Below, one piece after another: positions 5,407 to 19,799 of a DNA stretch of 23,848 bases. A model generated the notes under the pieces. That model was given only the letters and a program-made list of their open reading frames with translations. It was not told where the DNA came from and did not search any database. Made by a program: the position numbers and the translations under genes. The DNA is from a virus. The stretch is from positions 1 through 23,848 of the IMG/VR virus record IMGVR_UViG_3300025927_000027; one strand, 5' to 3'. Positions within the stretch are counted from its first letter, which is position 1. The number at the start of each line of letters is the position of its first letter.

Positions 5407-6168
5407 CTAGGCGGTCGCGCGCGCCAGGGCGCGGGCGAGGGTGGTGAGCTTCGCGCCGAACTTCGCCTCGACGGCCTGCAGTTCGGTGACCTGCTCGGGG
5501 GTGAGCGTCAGCCCGCCGGTGCCGGCCTCGCGCTGCGTCTGCAGTTCCGGGGCGTGGCGGCGGAGCACACCGCTGACGACCTGCTGGCTGGTGTAGCCCA
5601 GCTCGGCCGCGATCTCGCTCAGCTTCTTGCCGGCCTTGCGCATCTCGATCACCTTCGCGACGCGCTCCGCGTCGGCGGTCTTCTTCGCCTCGCGGGCCGC
5701 GATCTGCTCGGCGCTCGGGCCGCGCTTCGGCTTCGCGGGGGCGGCGTCCTGCTCGGCCTTGACCTCGGCGGCGCGCTCGGCGACGGCCTCGGCCTCGGAC
5801 TTCGTGCGGTTCGCAGCGGCGGCCTCGCGCCGGTTGCGGTACTCCTGCAGGCCCTTCGACAGGGCGGCGTCCGTCACGGCCGGCGCGTCAGCGGCGGCGG
5901 TGCGCCGGCGACGGGCGGGCGGCTTCGGAGCGTCGGTCTTCGTGCTGGCCATGGTGTCCTCCTGGGACTCGTGGGTGATGGGGCGAACGCGGGTGCGGCT
6001 GGTGCCGGTGGCGCCGCTGTCGAACTCGACGCGGTTGAAGATCGCGAAGCCGTCGGCGCCGTCGTCGTTGACGATCGTGCCGGCGCCGTACTGGCCGTGC
6101 GTGACGCGCGTGCCGACCAGGAAGTTCTTGGCGGTGCGGGGGGCGGTGGTGTCCTGCGTGGTTCCCAT
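5407..6168 (-). CDS. SH3-like plus HTH DNA-associated protein with internal start
   Basis: The frame encodes 253 aa from ATG 6168, six bases after a -10 box, so the mRNA looks leaderless. Residues about 17-62 (VGTRVTHGQYGAGTIV onward) resemble the small SH3/Tudor-like fold seen at the ends of CarD- and UvrD-type proteins. Residues 78-170 are Ala/Lys/Arg/Glu-rich and probably helical and DNA- or RNA-binding. Residues about 170-207 contain an HTH-like segment (KKLSEIAAELGYTSQQVV). Met73 (ATG 5952) has a perfect AGGAGG 5 nt upstream inside the coding sequence, so a 181-aa shorter form is likely. A chromatin-like or transcription-regulating role is inferred. It forms its own unit between promoter and terminator. 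Confidence 0.82.
   Translation of the reverse strand: MGTTQDTTAPRTAKNFLVGTRVTHGQYGAGTIVNDDGADGFAIFNRVEFDSGATGTSRTRVRPITHESQEDTMASTKTDAPKPPARRRRTAAADAPAVTDAALSKGLQEYRNRREAAAANRTKSEAEAVAERAAEVKAEQDAAPAKPKRGPSAEQIAAREAKKTADAERVAKVIEMRKAGKKLSEIAAELGYTSQQVVSGVLRRHAPELQTQREAGTGGLTLTPEQVTELQAVEAKFGAKLTTLARALARATA
5952..5963 (-). promoter_or_regulatory. Internal ribosome binding site (AGGAGG) for a shorter product
   Basis: The minus strand reads AGGAGGACACCATG within the 253-aa reading frame. It is a perfect Shine-Dalgarno at 5 nt spacing before Met73. The long form is apparently leaderless, so this internal site may be the better-translated start. Confidence 0.6.
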
Positions 6169-6174
6169 GCACCC

Positions 6175-6203
6175 ACAATCACATCGCCGCGCTCGCCTGT
6201 CTC
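6175..6203 (-). promoter_or_regulatory. Leaderless-type promoter (GAGACA / 17 bp / GATTGT)
   Basis: On the minus strand GAGACA (6203-6198) and GATTGT (6180-6175) are separated by 17 bp, and the ATG at 6168 begins 6 nt after the -10. The block GGGTGCATGGGAACCAC across the start is identical to that of the promoter at 19771-19799, although the 17-bp spacers differ. Confidence 0.7.
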
Positions 6204-6236
6204 CGCCTGGATGATGAAGCGTTCGTGAACGTTCGC
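6204..6236 (-). promoter_or_regulatory. Conserved upstream element and palindromes adjoining the -35
   Basis: Bases 6204-6231 match 19800-19827 at 20 of 28 positions in register with the -35 box. On the minus strand both read GTTCACG, a short gap, CTTCA, then ATCC and GGC before GAGAC. In this copy the outer part also holds overlapping palindromes (GAACGTTC; CGTTC-GT-GAACG). It is probably an activator or repressor site. Confidence 0.55.
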
Positions 6237-6301
6237 GGCCCGTCCTCCGTCTGCTCGCCCGCCGGGTGTGGGAAGACGGGTGCTGGCTCGGAGGACGGGC
6301 C
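6237..6301 (-). terminator. Long-stem hairpin downstream of the 68-aa gene
   Basis: A perfect 13-bp inverted repeat (GGCCCGTCCTCCG at 6237-6249 and its complement at 6289-6301) encloses a 39-nt loop that is itself GC-rich. It lies between the stop codon at 6364 and the promoter at 6203. A terminator is the simplest reading. The long loop is unusual and a structured regulatory RNA is possible. Confidence 0.5.
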
Positions 6302-6363
6302 GGTCGTGGCGGTGGGTACGTGCCGCCGGCGCCAGGAGGGCCACCGGCTTCACCCGCCCCGAT

Positions 6364-6570
6364 CTAGGTGGGGTCGTCCCCCACGGGTGCGTCGAGGTTG
6401 AGCCTGGCGCGTAGCTCCGCTGCGAGCGCGTCCGCCAGGTACGCGGCCTCGTCCGGTGCGCAGATCACGGTGCCGAGCAGCGGTCGGCTGCCGGGCGTCC
6501 CGAAGCCGCGCACCTGCAGCGTCACGTGCGCGTCGGTGCGGTTCACCTCGTGGATCGTGATCGCGTGCAT
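6364..6570 (-). CDS. 68-aa hypothetical protein
   Basis: ATG 6570 has an AGGTGG ribosome site 6 nt upstream and shares one base with the stop of the tiny ORF before it. The protein starts MHAITIHEV, then predicted strands, then a helical stretch (EAAYLADALAAELRARL) and an acidic tail. I do not recognise a family. It is the last gene of the membrane/secreted-protein unit before the hairpin at 6237-6301. Confidence 0.7.
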   Translation of the reverse strand: MHAITIHEVNRTDAHVTLQVRGFGTPGSRPLLGTVICAPDEAAYLADALAAELRARLNLDAPVGDDPT

Positions 6571-6638
6571 CACCGGCCACCTGGCGGGCGTCGCGGGACG
6601 CGGATGCGCTGTCCGTCCGGGCCGAGTAGCGTCGGCAC
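6570..6638 (-). CDS. Possible 22-aa ORF
   Basis: A GTG at 6638 opens a 22-codon frame (VPTLLGPDGQRIRVPRRPPG and two more residues). It fills the gap between two genes and ends in a TGATG junction with the next start. A GGGCGG lies upstream. Small basic peptides of this type occur in phage operons, but such a short frame could be chance. Confidence 0.35.
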   Translation of the reverse strand: MPTLLGPDGQRIRVPRRPPGGR

Positions 6639-6640
6639 GT

Positions 6641-6907
6641 TCAGCCGCCCTTGTACCGCGGCGCGGCGGTCGCGACGAACAGCGCGACTGCGAGCGCCGC
6701 ACGGCGCAGGCGTGGCCGCGGGGTGGTAGCGAACACGACCAGTGCCCGCGCGTCGCTCGTCCACACGAGCGCGAGCACGACCGCTGCGACGAGGAACGCG
6801 ATGCTGACGATCAGCGCGGCCGTGTCGAGCCACCGCAGCTGCTGCGCCGCCGCGTCGATGCCGGCGACCAGGCGCCGCACGTTCTCGGTGATCGGCGTGT
6901 CAGTCAT
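6641..6907 (-). CDS. 88-aa predicted membrane protein (two TM segments)
   Basis: ATG 6907 has GGAGG 8 nt upstream and overlaps the previous stop as ATGA. After a soluble helical N-terminus (to about residue 28) comes a clear membrane segment (TAALIVSIAFLVAAVVLALV). A second hydrophobic stretch lies near the C-terminus (AALAVALFVATAA), which ends in basic residues. Size and topology could fit a holin-like or membrane-anchored accessory protein. No endolysin is in the window, so function stays open. Confidence 0.72.
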   Translation of the reverse strand: MTDTPITENVRRLVAGIDAAAQQLRWLDTAALIVSIAFLVAAVVLALVWTSDARALVVFATTPRPRLRRAALAVALFVATAAPRYKGG

Positions 6908-6993
6908 GACGCGAGCCTCCCCAGCACCATCAGCAGGAACCCACCGGCGATCAGCAGGTATGCGGCGAGTCCTAGCACCTGCGCGCGGTTCAT
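6904..6993 (-). CDS. 29-aa single-pass membrane peptide
   Basis: ATG 6993 overlaps the previous TGA as ATGA, and the frame ends in an ATGA overlap with the next gene. The peptide starts MNRAQ and is otherwise one hydrophobic helix (VLGLAAYLLIAGGFLLMVLG) with a short polar tail. Perfect stop/start overlaps on both sides and a coherent membrane helix argue that it is real despite its size. Function unknown. Confidence 0.62.
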   Translation of the reverse strand: MNRAQVLGLAAYLLIAGGFLLMVLGRLAS

Positions 6994-7388
6994 GGCAACG
7001 CGTCCAGCAGCAGGCTTCGGCGCGGGCTGTACGTGACCGCGCCGGCACCGTCCTCGCCGAGGCCGGCCGGCACCCGCGCGGCCACGCTCACCGCCAGCGT
7101 CAGCACTGCCAGCCGCTGGCGATGGTCGCGGGTGCGGTACACCCGGAACGTGCACGTCGCGGGCCGGCCGGTGCGGCGCGGACCCTTCGGGCCGTGCACG
7201 TGCGTGAACGTGCACCGCAGCGCGTAGCTGCGCGCGTGCCCGTCGTGGCGTTGCCACTCGCGCCACTCAGCCGACGCGATCCGCTTCGCCGCGGCCTCGG
7301 TGTGCACGCGTGGCGACACCGCGGCCTTCCCGACCGCCGGCGCCACCAGGAACGCGACCACGCCGGCCACGGTCTGCCAGCGCTTCAC
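6990..7388 (-). CDS. 132-aa predicted secreted or membrane-anchored protein
   Basis: GTG 7388 overlaps the preceding stop as GTGA, with GGAAGG just upstream. The N-terminus has KR followed by a hydrophobic run (TVAGVVAFLVAPAVG) and a likely cleavage region near GKA. The mature part is very basic and has two Cys (in LRCTF and ATCTF) that may form a disulfide. No family recognised. It sits in a cluster of exported and membrane proteins (6641-8096). Confidence 0.68.
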   Translation of the reverse strand: MKRWQTVAGVVAFLVAPAVGKAAVSPRVHTEAAAKRIASAEWREWQRHDGHARSYALRCTFTHVHGPKGPRRTGRPATCTFRVYRTRDHRQRLAVLTLAVSVAARVPAGLGEDGAGAVTYSPRRSLLLDALP

Positions 7389-7639
7389 GACACCTTCCCC
7401 CTGGCGCGCTCCACGGCGTCCTGCTGCTCGGAGCGGGTGAACTTGCGGAGCGTCGTGAGCGCGGCGTTCAGCTCCTGCGCCTCGTTCTCCAGGATGCGCG
7501 CGACGCGTGCGGCCTCGCGGCCCCACATGCCGGGTGCGCTGGTCACGCGCGTCGAGAGCGCGGCCTGCGCCGCGCCGATCTCGCGCGCCGAAGCGGCGAC
7601 GGTATCGACGGCTTCCTGCGGTGTCATCTCGGTGTGCAT
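7385..7639 (-). CDS. 84-aa helical hypothetical protein
   Basis: ATG 7639 has GGAGG 6 nt upstream; the longer frame lacks support. The protein is almost entirely predicted helix, rich in Ala, Glu and Arg with heptad-like spacing (EAARVARILENEAQELNAAL), so a short coiled coil is likely. The position between two exported proteins suggests a possible structural partner. Function unknown. Confidence 0.75.
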   Translation of the reverse strand: MHTEMTPQEAVDTVAASAREIGAAQAALSTRVTSAPGMWGREAARVARILENEAQELNAALTTLRKFTRSEQQDAVERARGKVS

Positions 7640-7664
7640 GGGTTCCCTCCGGGGGGTTCGTGGG

Positions 7665-8096
7665 TTAGTCGCCGCGCGCGATGCGCACGAGGTGGCCGCG
7701 CGGCACGATCGTCGGGCCGGCACCGCCGCCGAACGCGCGGGTGGTGGTCGCGCACTCGGGCGCGATGATCAGGAACGGGGTGCCGGTGTCGCCGGCCTCG
7801 GTGCCGTCCACCGCGGTCGTCGCCTGCGTCTGCGTCGGGTCGAGCACGTTCTGCGTGTACAGGTACCCGAACGTCCCGGCCGGGTCGCCGTACTGCGTCA
7901 GGTTCACGAACTGCATACAGCCGATCAGGCCGTTGAGCGCGGCGCGATCCTGCTTCTCGCGCTTCGAGACGACCTTCAGGTCGTGCTGGAGCTTCCGGAT
8001 CTTCGACGCGGTGGACGCGCCTGCCGGGGCGGCGGTGAGCATCATCAGGCTCCCGCCCGCCAGCAGCGCGCCGGCGATCTTGGTCGTGCGGTTCAT
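7665..8096 (-). CDS. 143-aa predicted secreted protein with coiled-coil N-terminus
   Basis: ATG 8096 has AGGAGG 6 nt upstream. A signal peptide is clear: MNRTTK, a hydrophobic core, and cleavage near APAGAS (residues 23-28). A short coiled-coil follows (KIRKLQHDLKVVSKREKQDR), then a domain with two Cys, one in LIGCMQF and one in APECATT. It also has GYLYTQ and a Gly-rich loop. Similar secreted proteins with this layout occur in actinobacteria and their phages, but I cannot name the family. Export suggests an action at the host cell surface, for example altering adsorption, but that is inference. Confidence 0.77.
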   Translation of the reverse strand: MNRTTKIAGALLAGGSLMMLTAAPAGASTASKIRKLQHDLKVVSKREKQDRAALNGLIGCMQFVNLTQYGDPAGTFGYLYTQNVLDPTQTQATTAVDGTEAGDTGTPFLIIAPECATTTRAFGGGAGPTIVPRGHLVRIARGD

Positions 8097-8119
8097 GGCG
8101 TTCCTCCTACGGGGGTGGT

Positions 8120-8147
8120 GGGCGCCGGCCGCAGCCGGCCGGCGCCC
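8120..8147 (-). terminator. Hairpin terminator after the zinc-ribbon gene
   Basis: A perfect 11-bp GC stem (GGGCGCCGGCC and its complement) encloses a 6-nt loop and starts about 10 nt after the stop codon at 8157. No T-run follows, as is usual in this window. Confidence 0.68.
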
Positions 8148-8156
8148 GGGGGTGGA

Positions 8157-8678
8157 CTACTCAGCCGTCTTCGCGCGCCGGCTGCGCCGCTTGCGGCGGA
8201 CACCGGTCACCTGCTCCTCGCAGTACGGCCCGAGTCCGATCCGGATCGAGTCCGGGTCGGTCAGCGCGTCGCCGCACCGGCGACAACGGTCTTCCAGCTG
8301 CAGGCTGTAGGTGCGGTCGGCGAGCGTCGCCTCCCACTCCACGGCCGGCACCTCGTCGTCCTCGCGCACCGTGGGGGCGGTGGTGAGGCTGGCCGCGACG
8401 GCCCGCGCGGCGAACAGCGCGAGGCGGTCGTCGGTCGCGTTCCGGGTGGTCGTGTGCGTGCCGTCGTCGAACACCTTGCCGCACGCGACCCAGTCCTGGT
8501 CGGCGGTGCGCAGGTCGATCCAGTAGCCGACGCCCGGCACCTCGACGCCGTGCGAGTTCACCCACGGCTTGCACGCCCGCACCCGGTAGGTCAGGTGCTC
8601 GCCCGTCTGCCGGCTCGTGATCGTGACGATCGCGTACCCGGTGCGAACGAGCGGGCGGGTGGTGGTCATCGTGGTCAT
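8157..8678 (-). CDS. 173-aa protein with C-terminal zinc ribbon (DUF6011-like)
   Basis: ATG 8678 has AGGAGG 5 nt upstream; ATG 8669 is an alternative. The first 100 residues form a beta-rich domain (GYAIVTITS, GYWIDLRTADQDW). The C-terminus has a compact zinc site: CRRCG, then LTDPDSIRIGLGPYC, the pattern of small DUF6011-type ribbons in actinophages. A basic tail (RRKRRSRRAK) suggests nucleic-acid contact. It has its own promoter (8730-8758), a 5' hairpin leader and a terminator, so it is an independently controlled single-gene unit. Confidence 0.78.
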   Translation of the reverse strand: MTTMTTTRPLVRTGYAIVTITSRQTGEHLTYRVRACKPWVNSHGVEVPGVGYWIDLRTADQDWVACGKVFDDGTHTTTRNATDDRLALFAARAVAASLTTAPTVREDDEVPAVEWEATLADRTYSLQLEDRCRRCGDALTDPDSIRIGLGPYCEEQVTGVRRKRRSRRAKTAE

Positions 8679-8702
8679 CCTGTCCTCCTGGTCGGTCGTC
8701 CA

Positions 8703-8723
8703 GCGGGGCGTACCCGGCCCCGC
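8703..8723 (-). promoter_or_regulatory. 5'-terminal mRNA hairpin
   Basis: GCGGGGC and GCCCCGC form a perfect 7-bp stem with a 7-nt loop. It begins at about the expected transcription start (7 nt after the TACTAT box) and ends before the AGGAGG site. Such 5' stem-loops can protect mRNA. The DUF932 gene has a counterpart at 9935-9949. Confidence 0.55.
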
Positions 8724-8729
8724 ACACCC

Positions 8730-8758
8730 ATAGTAGGGGGAACCTTCGCGGTTGTCTC
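8730..8758 (-). promoter_or_regulatory. Promoter (GAGACA / 17 bp / TACTAT), leadered type
   Basis: GAGACA at 8758-8753 and TACTAT at 8735-8730 are 17 bp apart on the minus strand. The 17-bp block AGGGGGAGACAACCGCG (8763-8747) is identical at the promoter of the DUF932 gene (9993-9977). Confidence 0.72.
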
Positions 8759-8904
8759 CCCCTACCGTTCCGGGCAGCCTTCCCCGGCTGCTGCGGGCGT
8801 CGGCCCGGCTCGCGGTGCCCGGGGAGCGGCGTACCGGTCCCAGTGGGCGGTGCGGTGGGCGGCGAGGCGCGAGACTCACGCCGGGGAAGGCTGGCCGCAA
8901 CGGT
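8759..8904. other. Gene-free stretch with a widely spaced 14-bp inverted repeat
   Basis: No convincing gene is seen between the promoter at 8758 and the hairpin at 8905. Bases 8775-8788 (CAGCCTTCCCCGGC) are perfectly complementary to 8880-8893 (GCCGGGGAAGGCTG), with about 90 nt between. This could be a structured RNA, a paired operator or an organising site. Frames here look like ordinary GC-rich shadows. Confidence 0.5.
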
Positions 8905-8937
8905 GGCGGGCGCCGGCCCCCTCGACCGGCGCCCGCC
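8905..8937 (-). terminator. Hairpin terminator after the DUF932 gene
   Basis: A perfect 12-bp stem (GGCGGGCGCCGG and its complement) with a 9-nt loop starts 10 nt beyond the stop codon at 8948. Stem strength and position fit a terminator. There is no T-run. Confidence 0.72.
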
Positions 8938-8947
8938 CCTTGCAGCC

Positions 8948-9916
8948 CTACTCGGCCAGGCTGGCTGCAAGCTCCAGCGCGTGCTTCGCGAGCGGCTGGT
9001 GGCCGTCCACCATGAACCGGTGGAACGTCTGCTCGTCGGTGCGGTTGTAGCCGTAGTGCTGCTCCCACTCCGCCGCCGCGTGCACCAGCCCCAGGTACGT
9101 ACCGCGCAGGTCTTCCAGGTTCGGCGACTTGCGGTACACCGTCGCGAGGTTCATGCGCTTCACGTCGATGTTCTTCCGGGTCACGTCCGACACCTCGGCC
9201 TCGGGCGTGTACGGCACCAGCCGCCGCCAGAACCGCGTCGCGCCGCCGGCGGTCACCCGGCGCGCCGCCAGGCGCTCCGAGATCGCGGCCAGGTGCTTCT
9301 CGTAGTCGTACGCCAGCCCGAGCGCGGCCTTCGCCTCGAACAGCCGCTCACGAGCGTTCTTCGTGTGCCGGATGGTGTAGCTCCGAGGCGCGCCCTCGAT
9401 CGCCCACGACAGGGTGTTCCAGCAGACGACGCGGGTCATCGTGGTGCACGCCCGCATCCCCATCGAGCCGTCGAACGAGTTCACGACCAGCAGGTGCTTC
9501 ACGTACTGCTCGCCGGCGATCGTGTCGGTCGGGATCTCCAGCAGCCCCCACGCGAGGGCGCCGTCCTTCAGGGTGCCGGCGGTCTTCCAGCGCCCGCCGG
9601 CCTCGACGATGTCCTCGCCGAACTGGAACAGCTCCGAGTTCTGGATCAGCTCGTAGGTGGAGCGGACGACGCCGAGCGGCTTCCCGTCGATCTGCCGCAC
9701 GTTCATCGTCCACGCGGCCATGTCGGCGATGTGCATCTCGCCGGCATCGTCGAACCACGAGCCGAACAGGCTGTTGGACTGGACGACCGGGCTGGCGAGC
9801 AGCGGGAGGTGCGCGAACACCTCGTCCATCGTCAGGTGCGTCTCGGGCACCACGGTGCCGAGGCCGTGCCACGCGGGCACGTTGTCGGTGAAGACGCCGG
9901 ACTCGAACAGGTGCAT
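8948..9916 (-). CDS. DUF932 family phage protein
   Basis: The protein has 322 aa from ATG 9916, with AGGAGG 6 nt upstream. The N-terminal PAWHGLGTVV block (residues 14-23) is the hallmark of the DUF932 / phage-plasmid TIGR03299 family. Family features follow: YELIQNSELF, then the long central segment with VVNSFDGSMGMRACTTMTRVVCWNTL and the late HTKNARERLFEA helix. The function of DUF932 is not established; members are widespread in phages and plasmids near replication genes. Here it is a single-gene unit with its own promoter and terminator. An upstream GTG at 9961 overlaps the -10 box and is rejected. Confidence 0.9.
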   Translation of the reverse strand: MHLFESGVFTDNVPAWHGLGTVVPETHLTMDEVFAHLPLLASPVVQSNSLFGSWFDDAGEMHIADMAAWTMNVRQIDGKPLGVVRSTYELIQNSELFQFGEDIVEAGGRWKTAGTLKDGALAWGLLEIPTDTIAGEQYVKHLLVVNSFDGSMGMRACTTMTRVVCWNTLSWAIEGAPRSYTIRHTKNARERLFEAKAALGLAYDYEKHLAAISERLAARRVTAGGATRFWRRLVPYTPEAEVSDVTRKNIDVKRMNLATVYRKSPNLEDLRGTYLGLVHAAAEWEQHYGYNRTDEQTFHRFMVDGHQPLAKHALELAASLAE

Positions 9917-9934
9917 GTCGTACCTCCTGGTCAC

Positions 9935-9949
9935 GGGGAGCGCGTCCCC
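9935..9949 (-). promoter_or_regulatory. 5' leader hairpin of the DUF932 mRNA
   Basis: GGGGA and TCCCC form a 5-bp stem around 5 nt. It lies between the predicted transcription start (about 9953) and the GACCAGGAGG ribosome site. It matches the architecture of the leader at 8703-8723. Confidence 0.42.
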
Positions 9950-9959
9950 TAGTACCCCC

Positions 9960-9988
9960 ACGGTACGCCACCCCGGCGCGGTTGTCTC
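9960..9988 (-). promoter_or_regulatory. Promoter (GAGACA / 17 bp / TACCGT), leadered type
   Basis: On the minus strand GAGACA (9988-9983) and TACCGT (9965-9960) are 17 bp apart. The -35 block shares 17 identical bases with the promoter at 8730-8758. It drives the DUF932 gene through a short leader with a hairpin. Confidence 0.68.
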
Positions 9989-9994
9989 CCCCTG

Positions 9995-10345
9995 CTATGG
10001 GGATGGAGGCTGGCTTCCCGTGAGCCGGCGGTAGGCGCGCGCCAGGCCGACGTGCTCGACCGCTCGCGCCTGTTCGGCGATCGACAGGTGCGGCAGCAGG
10101 TCGAGCCGGCGCGCGTCGTACTGCTCGTGGTGCGTGTGGCACAGCGGCACCACGTCCAGCGGGTGCACGTACAGGTCGCCGTTCGCCAACTCCCGCGGAC
10201 TCGGCAACGGGTGCGGCTTGTCGTACTCGCGGCCGATCACGTGTGCCGCTTCGAGGCGCCGGCGCGGCGCGCCGGGCGGGCACACCCGGCACGCGCCCTC
10301 CTGCTCGACCTTCCGCCGCGCGTCGTTCCAGTTCCGGCTAGGCAT
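9995..10345 (-). CDS. HNH endonuclease
   Basis: The protein has 116 aa. The zinc-finger HNH layout is clear: Cys19-x2-Cys22, EAAHVIGRE with His35, then VVPLCHTHHEQYD with Cys69, His72 and His73. HNH enzymes of this size in phages cut DNA in packaging, replication or homing. This one ends the long replication operon and is about 11 kb from terminase, so a terminase-partner role is less obvious than usual. ATG 10345 overlaps the previous gene by 8 nt with no clear ribosome site, suggesting coupled translation. Confidence 0.87.
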   Translation of the reverse strand: MPSRNWNDARRKVEQEGACRVCPPGAPRRRLEAAHVIGREYDKPHPLPSPRELANGDLYVHPLDVVPLCHTHHEQYDARRLDLLPHLSIAEQARAVEHVGLARAYRRLTGSQPPSP

Positions 10346-10724
10346 CGGTCGGCACGCCCGGCAGCAGTCCCTCGCGGATCATCTCCTCGACCCGCTCGGC
10401 CGTGATGCCGTGCTGCTCCAGCCCGGGGTAGCCGCGCCGGCGCCACTCGGCGAACGTGATCCGCCCCGCGTCGTCCGCACGCCACTCCGGGATCTGCTTC
10501 GGCGCGAGCGTGGCTTCCTGCCGCGCAACCTCAGCCCGGATCTCCGACGCGCTCGGCATGAACTCGCGCGTCTTGCCGAGCGCGGACAACGCCAGCGCCA
10601 CGTGCCCACCTTCGAGGTCGTCCAGCAGTTCGTACCAGAGCTCGGCCGTGTCGTGGTTCATCTTCCCGGCCGGCCACGTCGCGGCCACCGCCTCGGACAG
10701 CTTGAACCACTCGTCCCGCGTCAC
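10338..10724 (-). CDS. Helicase-loader-like replication protein (G39P-like, tentative)
   Basis: The protein has 128 aa. GTG 10724 overlaps the stop of the winged-helix replication protein as GTGA. The N-terminal 65 residues (DEWFKLSEAVAATWP, WYELLDDLEGGHVALALSAL, REFMPSASEIRAEV) have the helical pattern of phage helicase loaders of the SPP1 G39P type. These carry the Trp/Tyr-x-x-L element and a closing F-x-P-S-x-x-E-I. The position right after the probable initiator supports this. No DnaB-type helicase is in the window, so the partner may be a host or distant phage helicase. Confidence 0.6.
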   Translation of the reverse strand: MTRDEWFKLSEAVAATWPAGKMNHDTAELWYELLDDLEGGHVALALSALGKTREFMPSASEIRAEVARQEATLAPKQIPEWRADDAGRITFAEWRRRGYPGLEQHGITAERVEEMIREGLLPGVPTDA

Positions 10725-11608: not shown

Positions 11609-11796
11609 GTTCCAGACCTCCGGTGAGGGTGGGGCAGATGAACGGGGCGCGCCGTGGTGGGAGCCACAGCGACGACGTAGACGGCCTCCGCGGCGCGCAC
11701 GCAGCGGGGGCCGTCTCTCGTAGCTGCCAGCGCCCGCGGCTTGGACACCATACACCCGTGGTGCAGGTGTGGAGAACTCGCGGGTCGAAGGCCCTG
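11609..11796. other. 188-bp gap between RusA and the replication protein
   Basis: There is no convincing separate gene. A frame starting at ATG 11751 overlaps the replication gene and has shadow-like composition. On the minus strand TGTATGGT near 11755-11748 resembles a -10 but has no partner GAGAC box at 17 bp. A promoter or untranslated leader for the replication protein is possible. Confidence 0.4.
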
Positions 11797-12358: not shown

Positions 12359-12397
12359 CACTACGCCCGGATGCCAAACCTGCACGCCTGCTCGAAG

Positions 12398-13713: not shown

Positions 13714-14141
13714 GACGACCTCGGATCTGCGATCGGCCGGCCCCACGTGCGCGCCTTCGACCCGTCGGCCGACTCCCACGTCTGCTCGTGCGTCGGCTGC
13801 CACCACGTCCCGTCGGCCTTCTGGTACGGCGGCGGCTTGAACGGCCACCCGGCCGTCCCGAACAGCGGCGAGAACACCCGCTCGCCCTCGTAGATCACGA
13901 CCTCTGTCTGGTCGCCGTTCGATCCGAGGCGCAGGTGATCCGCCGGCCCGATCGTGGTGCCGTACTTCTCGTGCCGCACACCGGTCGTGGCCGACGGGTA
14001 CGTGTCAGCGTCCTCGATGGGATCGGGATACGCGTCGTCGGCGGGGCGCGTCGTGCGCGGCCCGCGGCGGTACGCCCACGACACCGCCGCGACGCCGGCA
14101 CCGACACCGAACACGATCGCCGCCGCAACCGGCGGCGTCAC
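13710..14141 (-). CDS. 143-aa protein with an N-terminal membrane segment
   Basis: GTG 14141 overlaps the previous stop as GTGA and has GAGGGA close upstream. Residues about 4-23 (PVAAAIVFGVGAGVAAVSWA) form one membrane span followed by the basic RRGPR. The rest is soluble, acidic at first, then Trp- and Pro-rich. Topology suggests a cytoplasmic C-terminus. Function unknown. Confidence 0.7.
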   Translation of the reverse strand: MTPPVAAAIVFGVGAGVAAVSWAYRRGPRTTRPADDAYPDPIEDADTYPSATTGVRHEKYGTTIGPADHLRLGSNGDQTEVVIYEGERVFSPLFGTAGWPFKPPPYQKADGTWWQPTHEQTWESADGSKARTWGRPIADPRSS

Positions 14142-14713
14142 GACTCCCTCGCCATCTGCACGCTCTGGAAGTCGAGCGGGTCGCCGCCCCTGTCCGGATG
14201 CGTGGCGCGTAGCGCCGCCCGCACGCCGCCGTGCTGGTCGATGAGGTGTACCCCTCGGGCACGCGTCGCGTGCGCCGTGTGGCCGTCCTCGCCGGCGCCT
14301 AGCGCCTTCCACCCGGCGTACTGCTGCCGGTCGCGCGTGATGCCGTACCGATCGACCGCTCGCAGCGCCTGCAGCCCGAGCGCGATCGCCCGCACGTTGT
14401 GCTGCCAGAACTCGTACTCGTCGGTCGCGTACACCAGCCGCGTCGGCTCGCCGGCCCGCAGCTGCATCTCGAAGCTGACCTCCACGCCGGGGTGCCACGG
14501 CGCGGCGGCGTTCGCACGCGGCCACCCGTCCAGGCGAATGTCCGTCTCGCGCAGCGCAGCGCCGATCACCACGTCGCGAGCTCGCAGGTGGTGCAGTTCC
14601 CGGTCGAGCAGGTCGAGCGTGTCGGCCCACCCGGCGCGGAAGCTGAACCGGCCCTTGCGCTTCCGGGTGGCGCCGTGTCCCCATGTCGCGTACGGGCGGA
14701 AGCGGACGTCCAT
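14138..14713 (-). CDS. DnaJ-like phage protein (MDVRFRP family)
   Basis: The protein has 191 aa. The start MDVRFRPYATW and the block DTLDLLDRELHHL, then RLDGWPRANA and AIALGLQALRAVDRYGIT, match a family found in many actinophages and annotated as DnaJ-like. The C-terminus has HLIDQHGGVRAALRATHPDRGGD, which keeps the HPDRGGD turn and helix end of a J domain rather than a full J domain with the helix II/III spacing visible. ATG 14713 gives a TGATG overlap; GTG 14716 is an alternative. It may recruit host DnaK or act only as a scaffold. Confidence 0.8.
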   Translation of the reverse strand: MDVRFRPYATWGHGATRKRKGRFSFRAGWADTLDLLDRELHHLRARDVVIGAALRETDIRLDGWPRANAAAPWHPGVEVSFEMQLRAGEPTRLVYATDEYEFWQHNVRAIALGLQALRAVDRYGITRDRQQYAGWKALGAGEDGHTAHATRARGVHLIDQHGGVRAALRATHPDRGGDPLDFQSVQMARES

Positions 14714-14907
14714 CACAGGACGTCCGCGTCGCGCAGGATACGCTCGGCTTCGAGCAGGGTGCGTTCCTCAGCGGCGGCGCGCCACATCTTCGCGGCCTCG
14801 GCCCGCTCGTTGAACGCGACCTTGAACAGCATGAACGCGACGAACCACATGATCGCCGCGAACAGCCACATGACGGCGGCGCACAGCCACACGAACCCGG
14901 CGTTCAC
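14713..14907 (-). CDS. 64-aa membrane-anchored small protein
   Basis: GTG 14907 overlaps the ERF stop as GTGA. Residues 4-30 are strongly hydrophobic with many Trp, Phe and Met (FVWLCAAVMWLFAAIMWFVA). A charged amphipathic helix follows (NERAEAAKMWRAAAEERTLL). This is a single-pass membrane protein with a cytoplasmic helix. Its role in a recombination operon is unclear. Confidence 0.7.
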   Translation of the reverse strand: MNAGFVWLCAAVMWLFAAIMWFVAFMLFKVAFNERAEAAKMWRAAAEERTLLEAERILRDADVL

Positions 14908-15887
14908 GATCCGTACCCCGGGTCGCCGGGCGCCTCGTCAACGTCCGGCAGCGTGTCCGGCTCGGGTTCGGCCGGCGTGGCGCCGACGCCCATCCCGGAC
15001 ACCCACTCGTCCACCGCCGCCGCGACCGCGCCGGCGTACTCGTGGTTCTGCGCCGCGTGCTCCATCGTCGCGAACACGCGCTCGATCTCGTCCCGCGTCA
15101 GGTCGTTCAGCGACGCGACCGGGTTCGCCGGCACGTCGTCCCGCACGACCCAGCGGCACAGGTCGTGCACCGCGGCCTTGTCCACACCGCCGCCATGCGC
15201 GGCGTCCACCAGGAACGGCACGTCGCGCGCCAGGCCGAACAGGCGGCCGACCTGTCCCTTCGTCGCCGGCCGCGTGTCGGGGCCGTCCGCCGGCGCCGCC
15301 TGCTGCTGCGAGCGCGGCTGCTGCTGGCCGGCGCGGGTGTACGGCTCGCCGCCCTGGTCAGCTTCCTCGTCGCCGGTCGAGATCAGGAACCGGAAGATCA
15401 GCCACGACTTCTTGCACGCGGTGATCGCCTTCGGCACAGCCTTGTCGGTGTAGTCGGTCGCGTCGCCTTCCCAGTAGGACTCCTCGACCTCGCCGGTGTC
15501 GGCACACGTCAACGTCATCTGCATCCGCACCATCGCGAGGGTGCCCGAGTTCCCAGCCTGCGACGTGATCTGCGCACGCTCGCAGCTGAGCATCGACCCG
15601 CGGAACCCAACGCGGTACTTCGCGAGCAGCACCCGCACCATGTCCGCGATGTCGCCTTCCTTCGCGAAGTCATAGTGCTGCTTGTCGTTCCGGCCGGTCT
15701 TGCGGACGCGGTGCACCTCGCCCATCACCGCGCTGGTCTTCCAGGCGAGCAGGCTCGGGCCGGGCGCGTCCGCATCCCATGCCGGCGCCTCGGCCATGAC
15801 TTCGGCCAGGCCGTCCGGCATCACGTCCGGCACGTACGGGGGGGCGCCGTCGGTGGCCGGCGGCGGGGTCTTCGTGGTGGGAGCCAT
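14904..15887 (-). CDS. erf: ERF-family single-strand annealing recombinase
   Basis: The protein has 327 aa. The N-terminal half shows the ERF core: AVMGEVHRVRKTGRNDKQHY, a KEGDIADMVRVLLAKYRVGF stretch, a LAMVRMQMTLTCADTGE strand pair, and the characteristic GDATDYTDKAVPKAITACKK followed by SWLIFRFLI and STGDEEAD. The C-terminal third is Gln/Pro-rich, then a helical domain, as in other ERF proteins. It anneals complementary single strands in phage recombination and pairs naturally with RusA in the same operon. ATG 15887 lies 2 nt after the preceding stop. Confidence 0.88.
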   Translation of the reverse strand: MAPTTKTPPPATDGAPPYVPDVMPDGLAEVMAEAPAWDADAPGPSLLAWKTSAVMGEVHRVRKTGRNDKQHYDFAKEGDIADMVRVLLAKYRVGFRGSMLSCERAQITSQAGNSGTLAMVRMQMTLTCADTGEVEESYWEGDATDYTDKAVPKAITACKKSWLIFRFLISTGDEEADQGGEPYTRAGQQQPRSQQQAAPADGPDTRPATKGQVGRLFGLARDVPFLVDAAHGGGVDKAAVHDLCRWVVRDDVPANPVASLNDLTRDEIERVFATMEHAAQNHEYAGAVAAAVDEWVSGMGVGATPAEPEPDTLPDVDEAPGDPGYGS

Positions 15888-15889
15888 GC

Positions 15890-16060
15890 CTACGCCTTCA
15901 GGTTGCGGTCGAGGTACTCGGACAGTGCCTTCCGGCGGTGCCAGCTCTGCGGGTTGCCGGTCTGCTCAGCGAGCCGGGCGAGCCGGTCGGCGTCGCCCTT
16001 GGCGACGTTGATCCGGCACAGCTCGGCCGTCTCGCCGGCGACTGCATGGGGTCGGCCCAT
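15890..16060 (-). CDS. 56-aa small protein, possible RHH-like fold
   Basis: ATG 16060 has AGGAG 6 nt upstream. The protein has a strand-like ELCRINVAKGDADRLARLAE stretch followed by a helical RRKALSEYLDRNLKA end. That fits a strand-helix-helix (ribbon-helix-helix) pattern, but the match is by eye only. It sits directly before erf with a 2-nt gap and may autoregulate or serve as a small accessory. Confidence 0.68.
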   Translation of the reverse strand: MGRPHAVAGETAELCRINVAKGDADRLARLAEQTGNPQSWHRRKALSEYLDRNLKA

Positions 16061-16069
16061 GGCGGTCTC

Positions 16070-16429
16070 CTAACGTGGTGGGGTTTCCCCATTATAGGGG
16101 GGAGTCTGGTCGGCCCGGAGCTTCGCGATCATGTCCGCGAAGGTGGGGTGCAGGTCGATCGTCGGGTCGGGTTCCAGGTCGTCGCGTGTCATCTGGCCGG
16201 TGGCGAGGCGCAGGCGGATCGCGATGCTGTGGTCGCCGTACGCCCACAGCCATCCGGTGCACACCACCTCGGCGCCGTCGCGCGACTGGTGGCACGCGAA
16301 GATCGGCGCGCCGACCTCGCGGCCGGTGGTGGACACCAGTCCCTCGGCGAGGTCGTGGTCGTAGCCCGGGATCGCGTCGGCGTGCTGCGCGACGCGCCAC
16401 GGACAGGTGCGGCACGGGACGCGCGTCAC
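16070..16429 (-). CDS. DUF6283 family protein
   Basis: The product is 119 aa. The signature VPCRTCPWRV (residues 4-13), then IPGYDHDLAEGL, then APIFACHQS and VVCTGWLWAYG fits DUF6283. This is a small Cys/His protein of actinobacteria and their phages with a likely metal site (CxxC near the start, CH mid-protein, and a later Cys). GTG 16429 overlaps the previous stop as GTGA; an AGGAGG is present but only 1 nt away. Function not established. Confidence 0.83.
   Translation of the reverse strand: MTRVPCRTCPWRVAQHADAIPGYDHDLAEGLVSTTGREVGAPIFACHQSRDGAEVVCTGWLWAYGDHSIAIRLRLATGQMTRDDLEPDPTIDLHPTFADMIAKLRADQTPPYNGETPPR
16091..16096 (-). promoter_or_regulatory. Isolated consensus -10 (TATAAT), uncertain promoter
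   Basis: A perfect TATAAT lies on the minus strand 30 nt before ATG 16060, followed by TGGGGAAACCCCA (5-bp arms). It is within DUF6283 coding sequence (codons for Tyr-Asn) and no -35-like box is found at 16-18 bp. It could support an internal promoter for the 56-aa protein and erf. Confidence 0.3.
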
Positions 16430-16908
16430 GCCTCCTCGGTGCCTTCCACCACCACGACGTGCGGGTTCGGCTCGATGCGGTACTCCCACAGCCCGTCTCC
16501 GACGTACCGCCGCTCGACGGTGTGCGACCCGAACCGCTTCTTGCGGTAGTCGCGCAGCCGCGCGGACACGGACGCCTCGGGGTGGTTCGTGACGTTCGCG
16601 ATGTGCTGCAGCGTGCGCCACTGCCCGTCGCGCATCACCGCCCACACGTCCCAGAACTGGCGCGTCAGCCGCACCGCGTCGCGCTCCGGATCGAACGTGT
16701 CGCCGTCGAAGTTCAACTGCCCGGTCATCGGCACTCCTGGTCGTAGTCGTCGTTCGAGGTCGGTGACGCGCTGCGTCCACGTGATCGCCCAATCGCTGTC
16801 CGTGACGCGCCGGACGGCAACGTCCGTGTGCCCGACCTGGCGCAGCTGCGCGGCGAGCGTCTCGGCCGCGCGCTCCGTGCGGCGCATGGTCTTCTGGCCG
16901 CGGCTCAT
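16426..16908 (-). CDS. 160-aa two-part protein with C-terminal winged-helix domain
   Basis: ATG 16908 overlaps the previous stop as ATGA. Residues 1-60 are basic and helical. Residues 61-160 (from MTGQLNFDGDTFDP) contain a winged helix (VMRDGQWRTLQHIANVT, SVSARLRDYRKKRFG) ending in GLWEYRI. In other actinophages this second part commonly starts a gene by itself. Here Met61 (ATG 16728) has AGGAG 5 nt upstream, so a separate 100-aa product is likely. The long frame is either a fusion or two products from one frame. DNA-binding role inferred. Confidence 0.72.
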   Translation of the reverse strand: MSRGQKTMRRTERAAETLAAQLRQVGHTDVAVRRVTDSDWAITWTQRVTDLERRLRPGVPMTGQLNFDGDTFDPERDAVRLTRQFWDVWAVMRDGQWRTLQHIANVTNHPEASVSARLRDYRKKRFGSHTVERRYVGDGLWEYRIEPNPHVVVVEGTEEA

Positions 16909-17138
16909 GCCGGCTCGATCTCGTCGCACAGGAACGCGTCGATCACGATCGGCCCGTGCGCCTCGGAGCGAACGAAGTACCACTCGCGGGGCCGCAGCGC
17001 GAGGGGGCAGAACGCCGTCTCCAGCGTCCCCTCCCCCTCGCTGACAACTGGCGGGGATGCGAGCGCGGGGCTGTCCGGGCCGAGCACCAGGTAGCGCCGC
17101 TCGCGCCGGTAGTGCACTCGGCAGCCCGGCGTCAGCAT
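16905..17138 (-). CDS. 77-aa hypothetical protein
   Basis: ATG 17138 overlaps the preceding gene by 7 nt. The protein is predicted mainly strand (RVHYRRERRYLVLG, REWYFVRSEA, PIVIDAFLCDEIEPA), with three Cys (residue 6 and two in the second half). No family recognised. Confidence 0.65.
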   Translation of the reverse strand: MLTPGCRVHYRRERRYLVLGPDSPALASPPVVSEGEGTLETAFCPLALRPREWYFVRSEAHGPIVIDAFLCDEIEPA

Positions 17139-17338
17139 GGCGCCGGCGGGTCGTAGTGCCGGTCGCGGATGCCGAGCGCGCGCTGGCAGCTGGACGCCAC
17201 GTGCTGCGCCTCCCAGTCGATCCAGCCGAGCAGCGACAGGCGGTACTCGTCGCTCGCGTGCGGGCTGTGGATGGTGGTGCGCAGCGCGTCGCGGAGCGCG
17301 TCGCAGCGGCGCAGGATCACGCGGGTGCGGCCGTCCAT
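17132..17338 (-). CDS. 68-aa hypothetical helical protein
   Basis: ATG 17338 has GGAGG 7 nt upstream and a TGATG junction with the previous gene. Helical (TRVILRRCDALRDALRT, YRLSLLGWIDWEAQHV) with three Cys, one of them C-terminal. No family recognised. Confidence 0.66.
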   Translation of the reverse strand: MDGRTRVILRRCDALRDALRTTIHSPHASDEYRLSLLGWIDWEAQHVASSCQRALGIRDRHYDPPAPC

Positions 17339-17628
17339 CAGTCCACCTCCTGCTGATGCGCGAGCCGCGCGACCATCGCCGCATCCGCGCTCGACAGGTA
17401 CACGGCCTTCACGATCCGCACCTCGTCGCAGATCAGCGTCTCGAAGTCCCACGGGCCGGCCGCGCCGCGCGTCAGCCACGACTCGCGGTCGCCGTTCGCC
17501 CATGCCTCGACGACGCGCCAGCCGCGCTCGTCGCAGTCCTCGAACTCGGCGATCCAGCCGCCGGTGACGGTGCGGGCGCCGACCACGATGGTGGTGCCCT
17601 CGTCGTCCAGGAACGTCGGGGTGCTCAC
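17338..17628 (-). CDS. 96-aa hypothetical protein
   Basis: GTG 17628 overlaps the previous stop as GTGA. The front is strand-rich (TTIVVGARTVTGGWIAEFED), the middle Trp/Asp/Glu-rich, and the end helical (SSADAAMVARLAHQQEV). No family recognised. Confidence 0.67.
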   Translation of the reverse strand: MSTPTFLDDEGTTIVVGARTVTGGWIAEFEDCDERGWRVVEAWANGDRESWLTRGAAGPWDFETLICDEVRIVKAVYLSSADAAMVARLAHQQEVD

Positions 17629-17897
17629 GACGACGCCACCGTGCGCACGAGGCGGATCGCGTCGTACACCTCAGCGGTCGGGTCGCCGTCGTCCACGAGC
17701 ACGTCGAGCGCGTCGGACACGTTCCACCCCTCGGTGAACTCGTCGTCCGGGAAGCAGGCGCAGTACGCGTCGGCCACGGTCAGGCACGCCTCGCGGAGCA
17801 CCGAGCCGGTGTCCGGGTCGTCGATGATCGGCGCGAGCGCGCGGTGCATGACGGGCAGCTCGTGCCACGCCGGGCGGGTGTCGTTGTTGGTTCCCAT
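17625..17897 (-). CDS. 90-aa hypothetical protein, first gene of the long replication operon
   Basis: ATG 17897 begins 7 nt after a TACTAT box, so the message is probably leaderless. The start ATGGGAACC matches two other leaderless genes. The protein is acidic and helical (REACLTVADAYCACFPDDEF, SDALDVLVDDGDPTAEVYDA). As the first gene after the promoter, it may be regulatory or host-directed. No family recognised. Confidence 0.7.
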   Translation of the reverse strand: MGTNNDTRPAWHELPVMHRALAPIIDDPDTGSVLREACLTVADAYCACFPDDEFTEGWNVSDALDVLVDDGDPTAEVYDAIRLVRTVASS

Positions 17898-17904
17898 ACC
17901 CCCC

Positions 17905-17933
17905 ATAGTACACCCAAACAATGCGGGTGTCTC
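17905..17933 (-). promoter_or_regulatory. Leaderless-type promoter (GAGACA / 17 bp / TACTAT)
   Basis: GAGACA at 17933-17928 and TACTAT at 17910-17905 on the minus strand are separated by 17 bp, and ATG 17897 starts 7 nt after the -10. It probably drives the whole operon down to 9995, since no strong hairpin interrupts it. Confidence 0.72.
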
Positions 17934-17947
17934 CGACGATCTGCGAA

Positions 17948-17978
17948 CCGGCGTAGCGGCCGTCTGCCGGCGCCACGC
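17948..17978. repeat. 31-bp intergenic repeat, copy 2
   Basis: This is identical to 5325-5355. It lies between the hairpin at 17996-18030 and the promoter at 17905-17933, the same relative position as copy 1. Confidence 0.8.
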
Positions 17979-17995
17979 GGGGGGGCTGTGGGGTT

Positions 17996-18030
17996 GCCCG
18001 CCTGCGGCCATGGGAGGGCCGCGGGCGGGC
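17996..18030 (-). terminator. Hairpin terminator of the 19764-18039 operon
   Basis: A stem of 7 plus 6 bp (GCCCGCC, one mismatch, GCGGCC, with complements) closes on a 7-nt loop, starting 8 nt after the stop at 18039. It separates the two small-gene operons. Confidence 0.68.
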
Positions 18031-18038
18031 AGGGTGCG

Positions 18039-18350
18039 CTAGCCGCGCACCCGTGGGGCTGCCACGCCGCCGGCCACCACCCGGCGGGCGACGGGTGCCC
18101 ACACGCTCATCGCGCGCACCTTCACGGACAGGTCGTCGCGCCACACCTGCCGATGCCACCCGACGTACTCCGGGTGCTCCAGCAGCGCCTGCGCCGCGAA
18201 CTCGCGGGCCGTCACGAGCAGGTCGCGCTGGTCGGCCCATCGCACCCACGCGTCGTCCTCGATGCTGCACGCCGGCTCGCGCGGCATGTGCTCGGCGACC
18301 GCACGCTGGCACTCCAACGCGCGCGCCGCGAGCAGCGCCAACTCAGGCAT
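18039..18350 (-). CDS. 103-aa helical hypothetical protein
   Basis: ATG 18350 has GGAGG 6 nt upstream. Starts MPELALLAARALECQRAV and is mostly helical with a Trp-rich centre (DDAWVRWADQRD) and an Arg/Val-rich tail. Its start CGATGCCTGAGT is the same as that of the preceding gene. It is the last gene before the terminator. No family recognised. Confidence 0.68.
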   Translation of the reverse strand: MPELALLAARALECQRAVAEHMPREPACSIEDDAWVRWADQRDLLVTAREFAAQALLEHPEYVGWHRQVWRDDLSVKVRAMSVWAPVARRVVAGGVAAPRVRG

Positions 18351-18513
18351 CGGACACCTCCCGGAGCGCCGCGTCGATCCGCTCCAGCAGTGAACCGAGC
18401 CTCTCGCTGATGGGATCCTCTCGCCCGAGCCGCACCCGCGCCATCCCCACCAGGGGGGACAGGTCGTGGCGCGCCTCACGGAGTGCAGCTACAGCGCGCT
18501 CGGACTCAGGCAT
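18343..18513 (-). CDS. 56-aa helical hypothetical protein
   Basis: ATG 18513 overlaps the DUF4314 gene by 8 nt, and the stop lies within the next start region (both junctions read GATGCCTGAG). The peptide is charged and helical (ESERAVAALREARHDL, ERLGSLLERIDAALREV). A GAGGT lies about 8 nt upstream. Paired overlaps support it as a true gene. Confidence 0.65.
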   Translation of the reverse strand: MPESERAVAALREARHDLSPLVGMARVRLGREDPISERLGSLLERIDAALREVSDA

Positions 18514-18706
18514 CGCGCACGACCTCGAAGCGGTCGTAGCCGCGCACCATCCCGAGCGTCGCGCCGTTGTCCCACGCGACGTGCACGGTGCCCACGTCGT
18601 CGATGAACCGCACGGTGCCGTACGTGCCGCGCGGCAGGGTGGTGTACGGGTCGCTGCAGCTGACCAGCCGCACGCGCGTCCCAGCCATCGGAGCGGGGTT
18701 GTTCAT
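18506..18706 (-). CDS. DUF4314 family protein
   Basis: The product is 66 aa from ATG 18706 with an AAGGGA site 7 nt upstream. An in-frame ATG at 18745 overlaps the previous stop as ATGA and would add 13 residues. GTRVRLVSCSDPYT, then LPRGTYGTV, then DDVGTVHVAWDNGATLG and YDRFEVV match DUF4314, a small SH3-like domain found in phages and plasmids with unknown function. Confidence 0.85.
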   Translation of the reverse strand: MNNPAPMAGTRVRLVSCSDPYTTLPRGTYGTVRFIDDVGTVHVAWDNGATLGMVRGYDRFEVVRDA

Positions 18707-18741
18707 CCGGGTTCCCTTCCTCGGAGTGTGGTGGAGCTTGT

Positions 18742-19014
18742 TCATGGCGCCGGCGCGTCGTCGATCAGCGAGCACAGGATCGCCGCGAGGTTGGTGAGCG
18801 CGGACTTCGCGTCGCGCCGGCTGATCGCCACGTGCGTCGTCTCGTGCGGCGCGTCGCCGGTGGGGAGGGTGTGCAGCATCAGCCACACGTACCCGTCCTG
18901 CTCGTGCGACACGCTCAGCAGCCGAAGCTCGGCCGGCCGGGTCGGCCGGCGGGCGGCGTGCTCGTTCAGCACCTGCTCGGCCTCCTGCGGCGTGAGGTTC
19001 TTCCGGCGGGGCAT
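18742..19014 (-). CDS. 90-aa hypothetical protein
   Basis: ATG 19014 shares a base with the previous stop (TGATG). Basic start (MPRRKNLTPQEAEQVLNEHA), then strands (LRLLSVSHEQDGYVWLMLHT) and a C-terminal helix (ALTNLAAILCSLIDD). No family recognised. Confidence 0.68.
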   Translation of the reverse strand: MPRRKNLTPQEAEQVLNEHAARRPTRPAELRLLSVSHEQDGYVWLMLHTLPTGDAPHETTHVAISRRDAKSALTNLAAILCSLIDDAPAP

Positions 19015-19307
19015 CAGTCCCACGGTTCCTCGGGGGGCGTGAACGCCGCGTCTTCCAGGTCGGCCAGGATGCACCGCACGTCGAGCTTGATCGCGTCCGC
19101 GATCGCTCCGAAGCAGTCCGGCACGATCACGTCGTCCGGGTACACCACGATCGGATCGTCGAACCCGTCCACGTCGAGCACGGTGACGGTGCCGACGACC
19201 ATGTCGCCGCGCACCAGATCCTCCTGGCGCACATCGACCTTCCCGCCGGCCTCGGTGAACCCGATCTGCACGGCGAGCGCGATTTCCTCTCGCAGGGTGA
19301 GCGCCAT
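19014..19307 (-). CDS. 97-aa hypothetical protein
   Basis: ATG 19307 shares a base with the previous stop (TGATG). N-terminal helix (LREEIALAVQIGFTEAGG), then strands (MVVGTVTVLDVDGFDDPIVV) and an acidic C-terminal helix (GAIADAIKLDVRCILADLED). No family recognised. Confidence 0.68.
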   Translation of the reverse strand: MALTLREEIALAVQIGFTEAGGKVDVRQEDLVRGDMVVGTVTVLDVDGFDDPIVVYPDDVIVPDCFGAIADAIKLDVRCILADLEDAAFTPPEEPWD

Positions 19308-19513
19308 CAGAGCCACGCCTGCTTGTCGATGGTGGTGGCTTCGCGGACGCCGGCGAGCTTCCACCCGGTGGGCAGTCCAGCCTTCGCGAACGACTGCGCG
19401 GTGCGCAGGGTGGGCGCAGCGACGCGCCGATGCATGGCGTCGGTGAGGGTGCCGTCCGCGCCGTGCTTCGAGTAGTGCGCGACGAACACCGGCCCGCGGT
19501 AGGTGGCGCTCAC
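19307..19513 (-). CDS. 68-aa hypothetical protein
   Basis: GTG 19513 overlaps the previous stop as GTGA, with GAGGTGG 4 nt upstream. Starts VSATYRGPVFVAHYSKHG and is predicted mostly strand with a short central helix. Basic, no Cys. No family recognised. Confidence 0.66.
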   Translation of the reverse strand: MSATYRGPVFVAHYSKHGADGTLTDAMHRRVAAPTLRTAQSFAKAGLPTGWKLAGVREATTIDKQAWL

Positions 19514-19764
19514 AGCGCCACCTCGTCCGCGTCGCGCAGGAGCACGACGTAGTCGAGGTCGAACACCCCGACGACGTACGTGACGGCCTGCAGCGCACGG
19601 CGCAGCGCCGCGCGGAGGTTGCCGGCCCGGAGCAGTTCGCTCGCGTCCAGCAGGCACACGACCGCCGAGCTGTGAAGCTCAGCGTCGCGGTTCGCGCGCA
19701 CGATCGTCGCGGCGCGGTTGAGCAGGATGTGGACCTGCTCTGCGGGGGAGGTGGTGGTTCCCAT
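19510..19764 (-). CDS. 84-aa helical protein, first gene of a leaderless operon
   Basis: ATG 19764 begins 6 nt after a TACTAT box. The opening GGGTGCATGGGAACCAC equals that of the gene at 6168. The protein is mostly helical (SPAEQVHILLNRAATIVRAN, LDASELLRAGNLRAALRRAL) with a hydrophobic, acidic end. No family recognised. Confidence 0.7.
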   Translation of the reverse strand: MGTTTSPAEQVHILLNRAATIVRANRDAELHSSAVVCLLDASELLRAGNLRAALRRALQAVTYVVGVFDLDYVVLLRDADEVAL

Positions 19765-19770
19765 GCACCC

Positions 19771-19799
19771 ATAGTACCCCCATACAACCCGGAAGTCTC
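19771..19799 (-). promoter_or_regulatory. Leaderless-type promoter (GAGACT / 17 bp / TACTAT)
   Basis: GAGACT (19799-19794) and TACTAT (19776-19771) on the minus strand are 17 bp apart. The start codon at 19764 follows after 6 nt. The flanks on both sides, but not the spacer, match the promoter at 6175-6203. Confidence 0.72.

Follow-up and report, generated by a model that had tools for sequence, protein, structure and literature searches.

A probable leaderless promoter family with a shared start block in a high-GC phage lineage

Results and Discussion

The viral record IMGVR_UViG_3300025927_000027 of IMG/VR (23,848 bp, 71% GC; this whole stretch is called the window below) carries on its minus strand three genes whose ATG lies only a few bases behind a promoter-like sequence. 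We consider it likely that these sequences belong to a lineage-specific promoter family with leaderless use, in which the promoter, the discriminator and the first nine bases of the gene, ATGGGAACC, form one module. As proposed in an original prediction made from the letters alone, a GAGAC(A/T) box and a -10 box are exactly 17 bp apart at all three sites, and the ATG follows the -10 box after 6 nt (site 1), 7 nt (site 2) and 6 nt (site 3). An AGGAGG-type ribosome site was not found in the region searched before these ATGs; such sites are present before 8678, 9916 and 5952. The description of the -10 boxes as TACTAT-like held for sites 2 and 3, site 1 (GATTGT) being only loosely alike, and the three proposed members were right, with two leadered members and a possible decayed sixth overlooked. 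The members are as follows.

6175 to 6203, minus strand: leaderless promoter 1, GAGACA (6203-6198), 17 nt, GATTGT (6180-6175); weight matrix score 18.7, leave-one-out 13.2
17905 to 17933, minus strand: leaderless promoter 2, GAGACA (17933-17928), 17 nt, TACTAT (17910-17905); score 24.0; spacer the same in relative L005
19771 to 19799, minus strand: leaderless promoter 3, GAGACT (19799-19794), 17 nt, TACTAT (19776-19771); score 22.1
8730 to 8758, minus strand: leadered promoter, GAGACA-N17-TACTAT; leader with a short stem-loop and AGGAGG, then ATG 8678
9960 to 9988, minus strand: leadered promoter, GAGACA-N17-TACCGT; leader with AGGAGG, then ATG 9916
8948 to 9916, minus strand: DUF932 gene behind the leadered promoter at 9988
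469 to 497, minus strand: candidate sixth member, decayed, GCCACG-N17-TACTAT (-10 box at 474-469), followed by an open reading frame (ORF) at 452 or 464

A Probable Promoter Family Shared by Leaderless and Leadered Genes

The weight matrix of the family gave 18.7-24.0 for the five window sites and 10.4 for the best non-member, and GAGAC-N18-TACTAT occurs three times in the window against 0.001 expected. The search for the motif in related phages, which the original prediction had put forward as a check, found the promoter in L003, L004 and L005, viral fragments whose terminase is 98-100% identical to that of the window (91% in a further relative, L072); promoter 3 is kept in all three. Apart from these close relatives and two isolated matches, about 545 kb of other high-GC DNA contains no copy of the family promoter. 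The wider promoter scan gave matches in 68 viral stretches, among which L003, L004 and L005 were the only high-GC relatives, and the other stretches, mostly low-GC, were taken as chance. A scan of 5500-20400 for the sigma-70 consensus (near TTGACA/TATAAT, at least 9 of 12 positions) found none, and GAGACA/TACTAT agrees with that consensus at 8 of 12; therefore GAGACW/TACTAT (W, A or T) is not a consensus promoter.

The copies at 8758 and 9988 precede genes with AGGAGG, so one promoter would serve leadered as well as leaderless messages, and a single family appears, from its sequence, to drive both kinds of gene. Their leaders are short and carry a small stem-loop, no more stable than in shuffled sequence, and both start with GGG discriminators. 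A perfect 9-bp inverted repeat (GTAGGGGGA/TCCCCCTAC) at 8733-8765 covers the -35 and -10 boxes of the promoter at 8758 and is operator-like. The spacer of the candidate sixth copy (497-469) resembles that of promoter 3 and is followed by TACTATGGG. The ATG inside TACTATGGG was rejected as a start: its frame relative to the gene differs between the window and L005, and the second ATG is kept.

Predicted Leaderless Starts

Three genes lie directly behind the leaderless promoters.

5407 to 6168, minus strand: leaderless gene 1, 253 residues; weak Tudor-like N-terminus and weak helix-turn-helix in the C-terminal half
17625 to 17897, minus strand: leaderless gene 2, 90 residues; absent in L005
19510 to 19764, minus strand: leaderless gene 3, 84 residues; replaced in L005 by a different 72-residue gene

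The -10 boxes of sites 2 and 3, and that of a late gene in the relatives (described below), are of the form TANNNT and stand shortly before the ATG, while site 1 fits this form partly. In Mycobacterium tuberculosis the centre of the TANNNT element lies 7-12 bp ahead of start sites (PMC3898074), a position that the boxes of the family fit, which supports reading them as leaderless promoters. Between relatives the gap shifts (7 versus 6 nt at 17933, 6 versus 7 nt at the late gene) and the ATG is unchanged. From the gap of 6-7 nt we infer that transcription would begin at the ATG itself.

The Start Block

Each of the three genes begins with the same nine bases.

6160 to 6168, minus strand: start block ATGGGAACC of gene 1, preceded by GGGTGC
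17889 to 17897, minus strand: start block ATGGGAACC of gene 2, preceded by GGGGGGT
19756 to 19764, minus strand: start block ATGGGAACC of gene 3, preceded by GGGTGC

The predicted common start of all three genes was borne out: the window contains ATGGGAACC three times, and nowhere but at these starts (P about 2e-7 for three genes among about 35 starting in this way). So was the likeness of two sites despite differing spacers: sites 1 and 3 have GGGTGCATGGGAACCAC in common, their promoters agreeing at 5 of 17 spacer positions and at 17 of 17 in the start region (p 2e-5). Counting the late gene of the relatives, ATGGGAAC starts four unrelated genes. GGA makes up 8% of glycine codons, yet it is the codon used in every start block; because of this constant choice, and of the 5/17 spacer against the 17/17 start, we take the block to be conserved at the nucleotide level. 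A scan for the block outside the lineage returned five further matches that lack the promoter and were taken as chance.

The bias in composition extends beyond the block. At nt 7-27 the leaderless starts are 81% A/C, compared with 55% in other starts of the window (p 7e-4; five independent loci), and they fold more weakly than those starts (p 0.02; independent loci), the control starts of both comparisons being our own choices, some of them possibly wrong. CA repeats near the start together with little structure are known to favour leaderless translation in Escherichia coli and other bacteria (PMC9031893). The first seven codons of genes 1 and 2 and of the late gene look related (MGTxxDT), as would be expected if gene bodies had been fused to one start.

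Gene Exchange behind the Start in Relatives

The relatives provide natural experiments on the module. L005 and the window share 97% identity as far as base 12 of the gene at 19764 (ATGGGAACCACC); L005 then continues into the different 72-residue gene, behind which identity with the window returns at GTGAGCGCC of the next gene. At 17897 the 90-residue gene is missing from L005. Behind the promoter and ATGGGAACC come about 18 bases without a match, and the reading frame then continues into the following gene (17338-17628 in the window), which there has a GTG start of its own at 17628. L004 carries an inserted unit at about 1005-1348, between genes that are adjacent in the window (18941/19010). 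It consists of a hairpin, GAGACA-N17-TACTAT and a leaderless gene of 73 residues starting ATGAGCACC, and its upstream element and that of promoter 1 share 82% identity. Phage morons are self-contained promoter-gene inserts, and the L004 unit resembles them; it is the only place at which a self-contained promoter-gene unit was found between genes that are neighbours in a relative.

A further occurrence of the block lies beyond the right end of the window, on the plus strand, at the start of a late gene.

L003 at 5970, L004 at 6831 and L072 at 3033 (plus strand), L005 at 709 (minus strand): late gene starting ATGGGAAC after CCCACGTAACGGGGGGGTGCGCTGGTA, in four relatives

All four relatives have ATGGGAAC at the start of this gene, and its ATG stands 6-7 nt behind TACGGT or TAGGAT, both of the TANNNT type, with no GAGAC box. 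The 27 nt upstream of it are identical in 4/4 relatives, even though the flanks have diverged in L072. By its sequence, this late-gene promoter represents a second, non-GAGAC type of leaderless promoter.

Elements Upstream of the Promoters

Inverted repeats and a direct repeat lie ahead of several promoters.

6236 to 6302, minus strand: perfect 14-bp inverted repeat, terminator-like, 33 bp upstream of the -35 box of promoter 1; z-score -4.0; no T tract
17995 to 18031, minus strand: 15-bp inverted repeat (93%), terminator-like, upstream of promoter 2; z-score -3.5
8905 to 8937, minus strand: perfect 12-bp inverted repeat upstream of the promoter at 8758; z-score -4.0
19800 to 19825, minus strand: upstream element with a TTCACG direct repeat at 11-bp spacing, common to promoter 1 (6204-6229) and the extra L004 unit

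The promoter of the extra L004 unit also has a strong inverted repeat ahead of it. When examined as intrinsic terminators (G+C-rich stem plus T tract), the sites before the promoters showed strong stems and no T tract after any of them. The predicted hairpins are consistent with separate transcription units. The TTCACG repeats sit at about -61 and -50 (the L004 copy is at 1269-1303) and are a possible activator or repressor site. A PhoP-like reading of these repeats was an idea only and was dropped, the 11-bp spacing being broken in L005.

A Model for the Module and Its Alternatives

The proposal of a leaderless promoter family is well supported by its geometry, the TANNNT boxes, the lack of Shine-Dalgarno (SD) sites, the upstream hairpins and the preservation of ATG and frame when the gene changes. 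We suggest that the host RNA polymerase would recognise the family (GAGACW, 17 nt, TAC(T/C)(A/G)T or similar), probably through the housekeeping sigma factor and perhaps with help from a further phage or host factor, and that a short leftward transcription unit would start at each copy. At three copies transcription would begin at the ATG, and the leaderless mRNA would be translated from its 5' end without an SD site. Promoter, discriminator and ATGGGAACC would act as one module, with gene bodies exchanged or fused behind it, probably through homologous recombination assisted by the phage ERF-type annealing protein. The block and the A/C-rich codons after it would most likely be kept for an unstructured leaderless 5' end, their service as an exchange joint being secondary.

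Could the block instead be kept mainly as a recombination boundary, a short promoter-plus-ATGGGAACC homology for the annealing protein whose letters are irrelevant to translation? We regard this as plausible, though we lean against it. At both changed genes of L005 the switch falls 9-12 nt into the ORF, the paralogues share upstream element, spacer and start in different combinations, an ERF annealing protein is encoded in the window (14904-15887), and boundary sequences are an established model for phages (PMC3233612). However, the late gene has the block with a different promoter and on the other strand, nine bases are short for homology, the A/C bias runs past the block, and selection for intact genes alone would also predict breakpoints at starts.

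The late gene also raises the doubtful idea that ATGGGAAC, perhaps with the C that follows, is a signal for leaderless translation initiation, with the start codon as part of it, that works irrespective of the promoter; the phage would use it on either strand, in early (GAGAC) as well as late (TACGGT) units, and would capture new genes by fusion behind it. A role in transcription, with the first bases and the GGG discriminator setting promoter escape or forming part of an operator, appears unlikely to us: the block is contiguous with the discriminator GGGTGC, GGG discriminators occur in the leadered copies too, and the upstream repeats, 11 bp apart, hint at a regulator, but both leadered copies lack the block. 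Nor is GGGAACC clearly enriched elsewhere (9 on both strands versus 5.7 expected), on which ground the operator reading of it was rejected. We think it equally improbable that the block is merely inherited from a recent duplication of a promoter-start unit too young to have diverged. Upstream and spacer pieces are indeed common to sites, and the related codons 1-7 of three unrelated genes would fit such descent, but the contrast between spacer and start at sites 1 and 3 and the survival of the late-gene ATGGGAAC in L072 amid diverged flanks speak against it. Each of the four readings (unstructured leaderless 5' end, exchange joint, initial transcription, descent) has some fit, and more than one may apply at once.

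Several points weigh against the reading as a whole. The -10 box of promoter 1 is weak, and gene 1 contains an in-frame internal ATG at 5952 with AGGAGG five nt before it. G-rich stretches before 17897 and 19764 pair with the anti-SD sequence at -7.8 and -9.8 kcal/mol, albeit at unusual distances and within the promoter itself. The family rests on few independent copies, and a search of genome contigs for the promoter-start pattern gave no match that would assign a host. The extra leaderless copy of L004, starting ATGAGCACC, does without the block, and in Mycobacterium smegmatis randomising +4 to +9 revealed no preference (PMC4633059). With these last two points on one side, and the late gene with its different promoter and the A/C-rich, unstructured starts on the other, the predicted conservation of the block for leaderless translation is only partly supported.

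That the genes are not leaderless at all, with transcripts starting further upstream or translation beginning at downstream codons with ribosome sites such as 5952, seems very improbable given the gene-like codon-position GC from 6168 to 5953 and in genes 2 and 3 (0.92-0.97 at third positions), the lack of a strong downstream ribosome site in genes 2 and 3, and the fixed spacing of 6-7 nt at several unrelated genes. Leaderless expression of genes 2 and 3 is accordingly graded by us as very likely on sequence grounds; it is less likely for gene 1, because of its weak -10 box and internal start. The ATG at 5952 may yield a second product of 181 residues that lacks the Tudor-like N-terminus. A further leaderless candidate, without the start block, is the ATG at 20295 (minus strand), which has TACAGT 7 nt before it; its region (20295-20330) contains the palindrome GGTACGGGAGCGTACC and is divergent.

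Lineage and Host

Among 50,697 named phage records no DNA match to the window was found. Its terminase (21313-22728, plus strand) reaches at best 39-45% identity to terminases of Gordonia, Brevibacterium and methanogen phages. Terminase identities leave a gap between 91% (L072) and about 48% with nothing inside it, and the window therefore appears to represent an isolated lineage of soil phages without a close named relative. The leaderless gene products that were compared with phage proteins had no match, and scans of viral contigs with the DUF932 and gene-1 proteins gave no further relatives. Matches of the terminase to genome contigs were limited to 41-48% identity in mixed phyla and gave no host assignment; the high GC content suggests an actinobacterium. 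The window also carries genes for a DpdA-like tRNA-guanine transglycosylase and a QueD-like protein (1672-2577 and 4545-4940, minus strand), which suggest that the phage DNA may be modified with 7-deazaguanine.

Relation to Known Systems

Leaderless promoters are already known from phages, and the family in the window is a variant of them. In Cluster O mycobacteriophages (Corndog PL1 and PR2) they are SigA-like, with boxes of the TTGACA/TATAAT type as opposed to the GAGACW -35 box of the window, and the consulted part of that report does not describe a shared start block, whereas unrelated genes of the window share their first nine bases (PMC4351075). The Start-Associated Sequence (SAS) and extended SAS of Cluster K phages are similar in that a short sequence is repeated at unrelated gene starts, some with an extended upstream element and promoter (PMC3203893, PMC11373665). 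The Cluster K SAS, however, lies upstream of the ATG near the ribosome site, while the window block spans the ATG and codons 2-3 with no ribosome site; in the window the Cluster K SAS GGGATAGGAGCCC (3-9 bp before start codons) has six matches with at most three mismatches versus 6.5 expected and is not enriched. Actinobacterial leaderless genes likewise have a TANNNT-type box just before the ATG and no SD site; no downstream sequence preference is reported for them, in contrast to codons 2-3 of the window genes, which are identical across genes (PMC3898074, PMC4633059). Exchange at gene borders recalls the boundary sequences of phages (PMC3233612). Both these and morons differ from the lineage of the window, where the joint is found behind a leaderless start, at 9-12 nt within the ORF. 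Relative to the consulted parts of the Cluster O and Cluster K reports (PMC4351075, PMC3203893), what is new is a GAGACW promoter with mixed leadered and leaderless use, a block that extends across the start codon, and the replacement of genes directly after this block.

Leaderless mRNAs are frequent among actinobacteria, and the mycobacterial studies consulted saw no effect of sequence beyond a 5' ATG or GTG. That view can be tested directly in a phage in which several unrelated genes have the same nine bases at their start. Replacement of a gene with breakpoints right after a leaderless start, as seen in the relatives, is a simple route by which acquired genes can be expressed without a ribosome site, and the promoter-start module could serve as a compact expression part in high-GC hosts.

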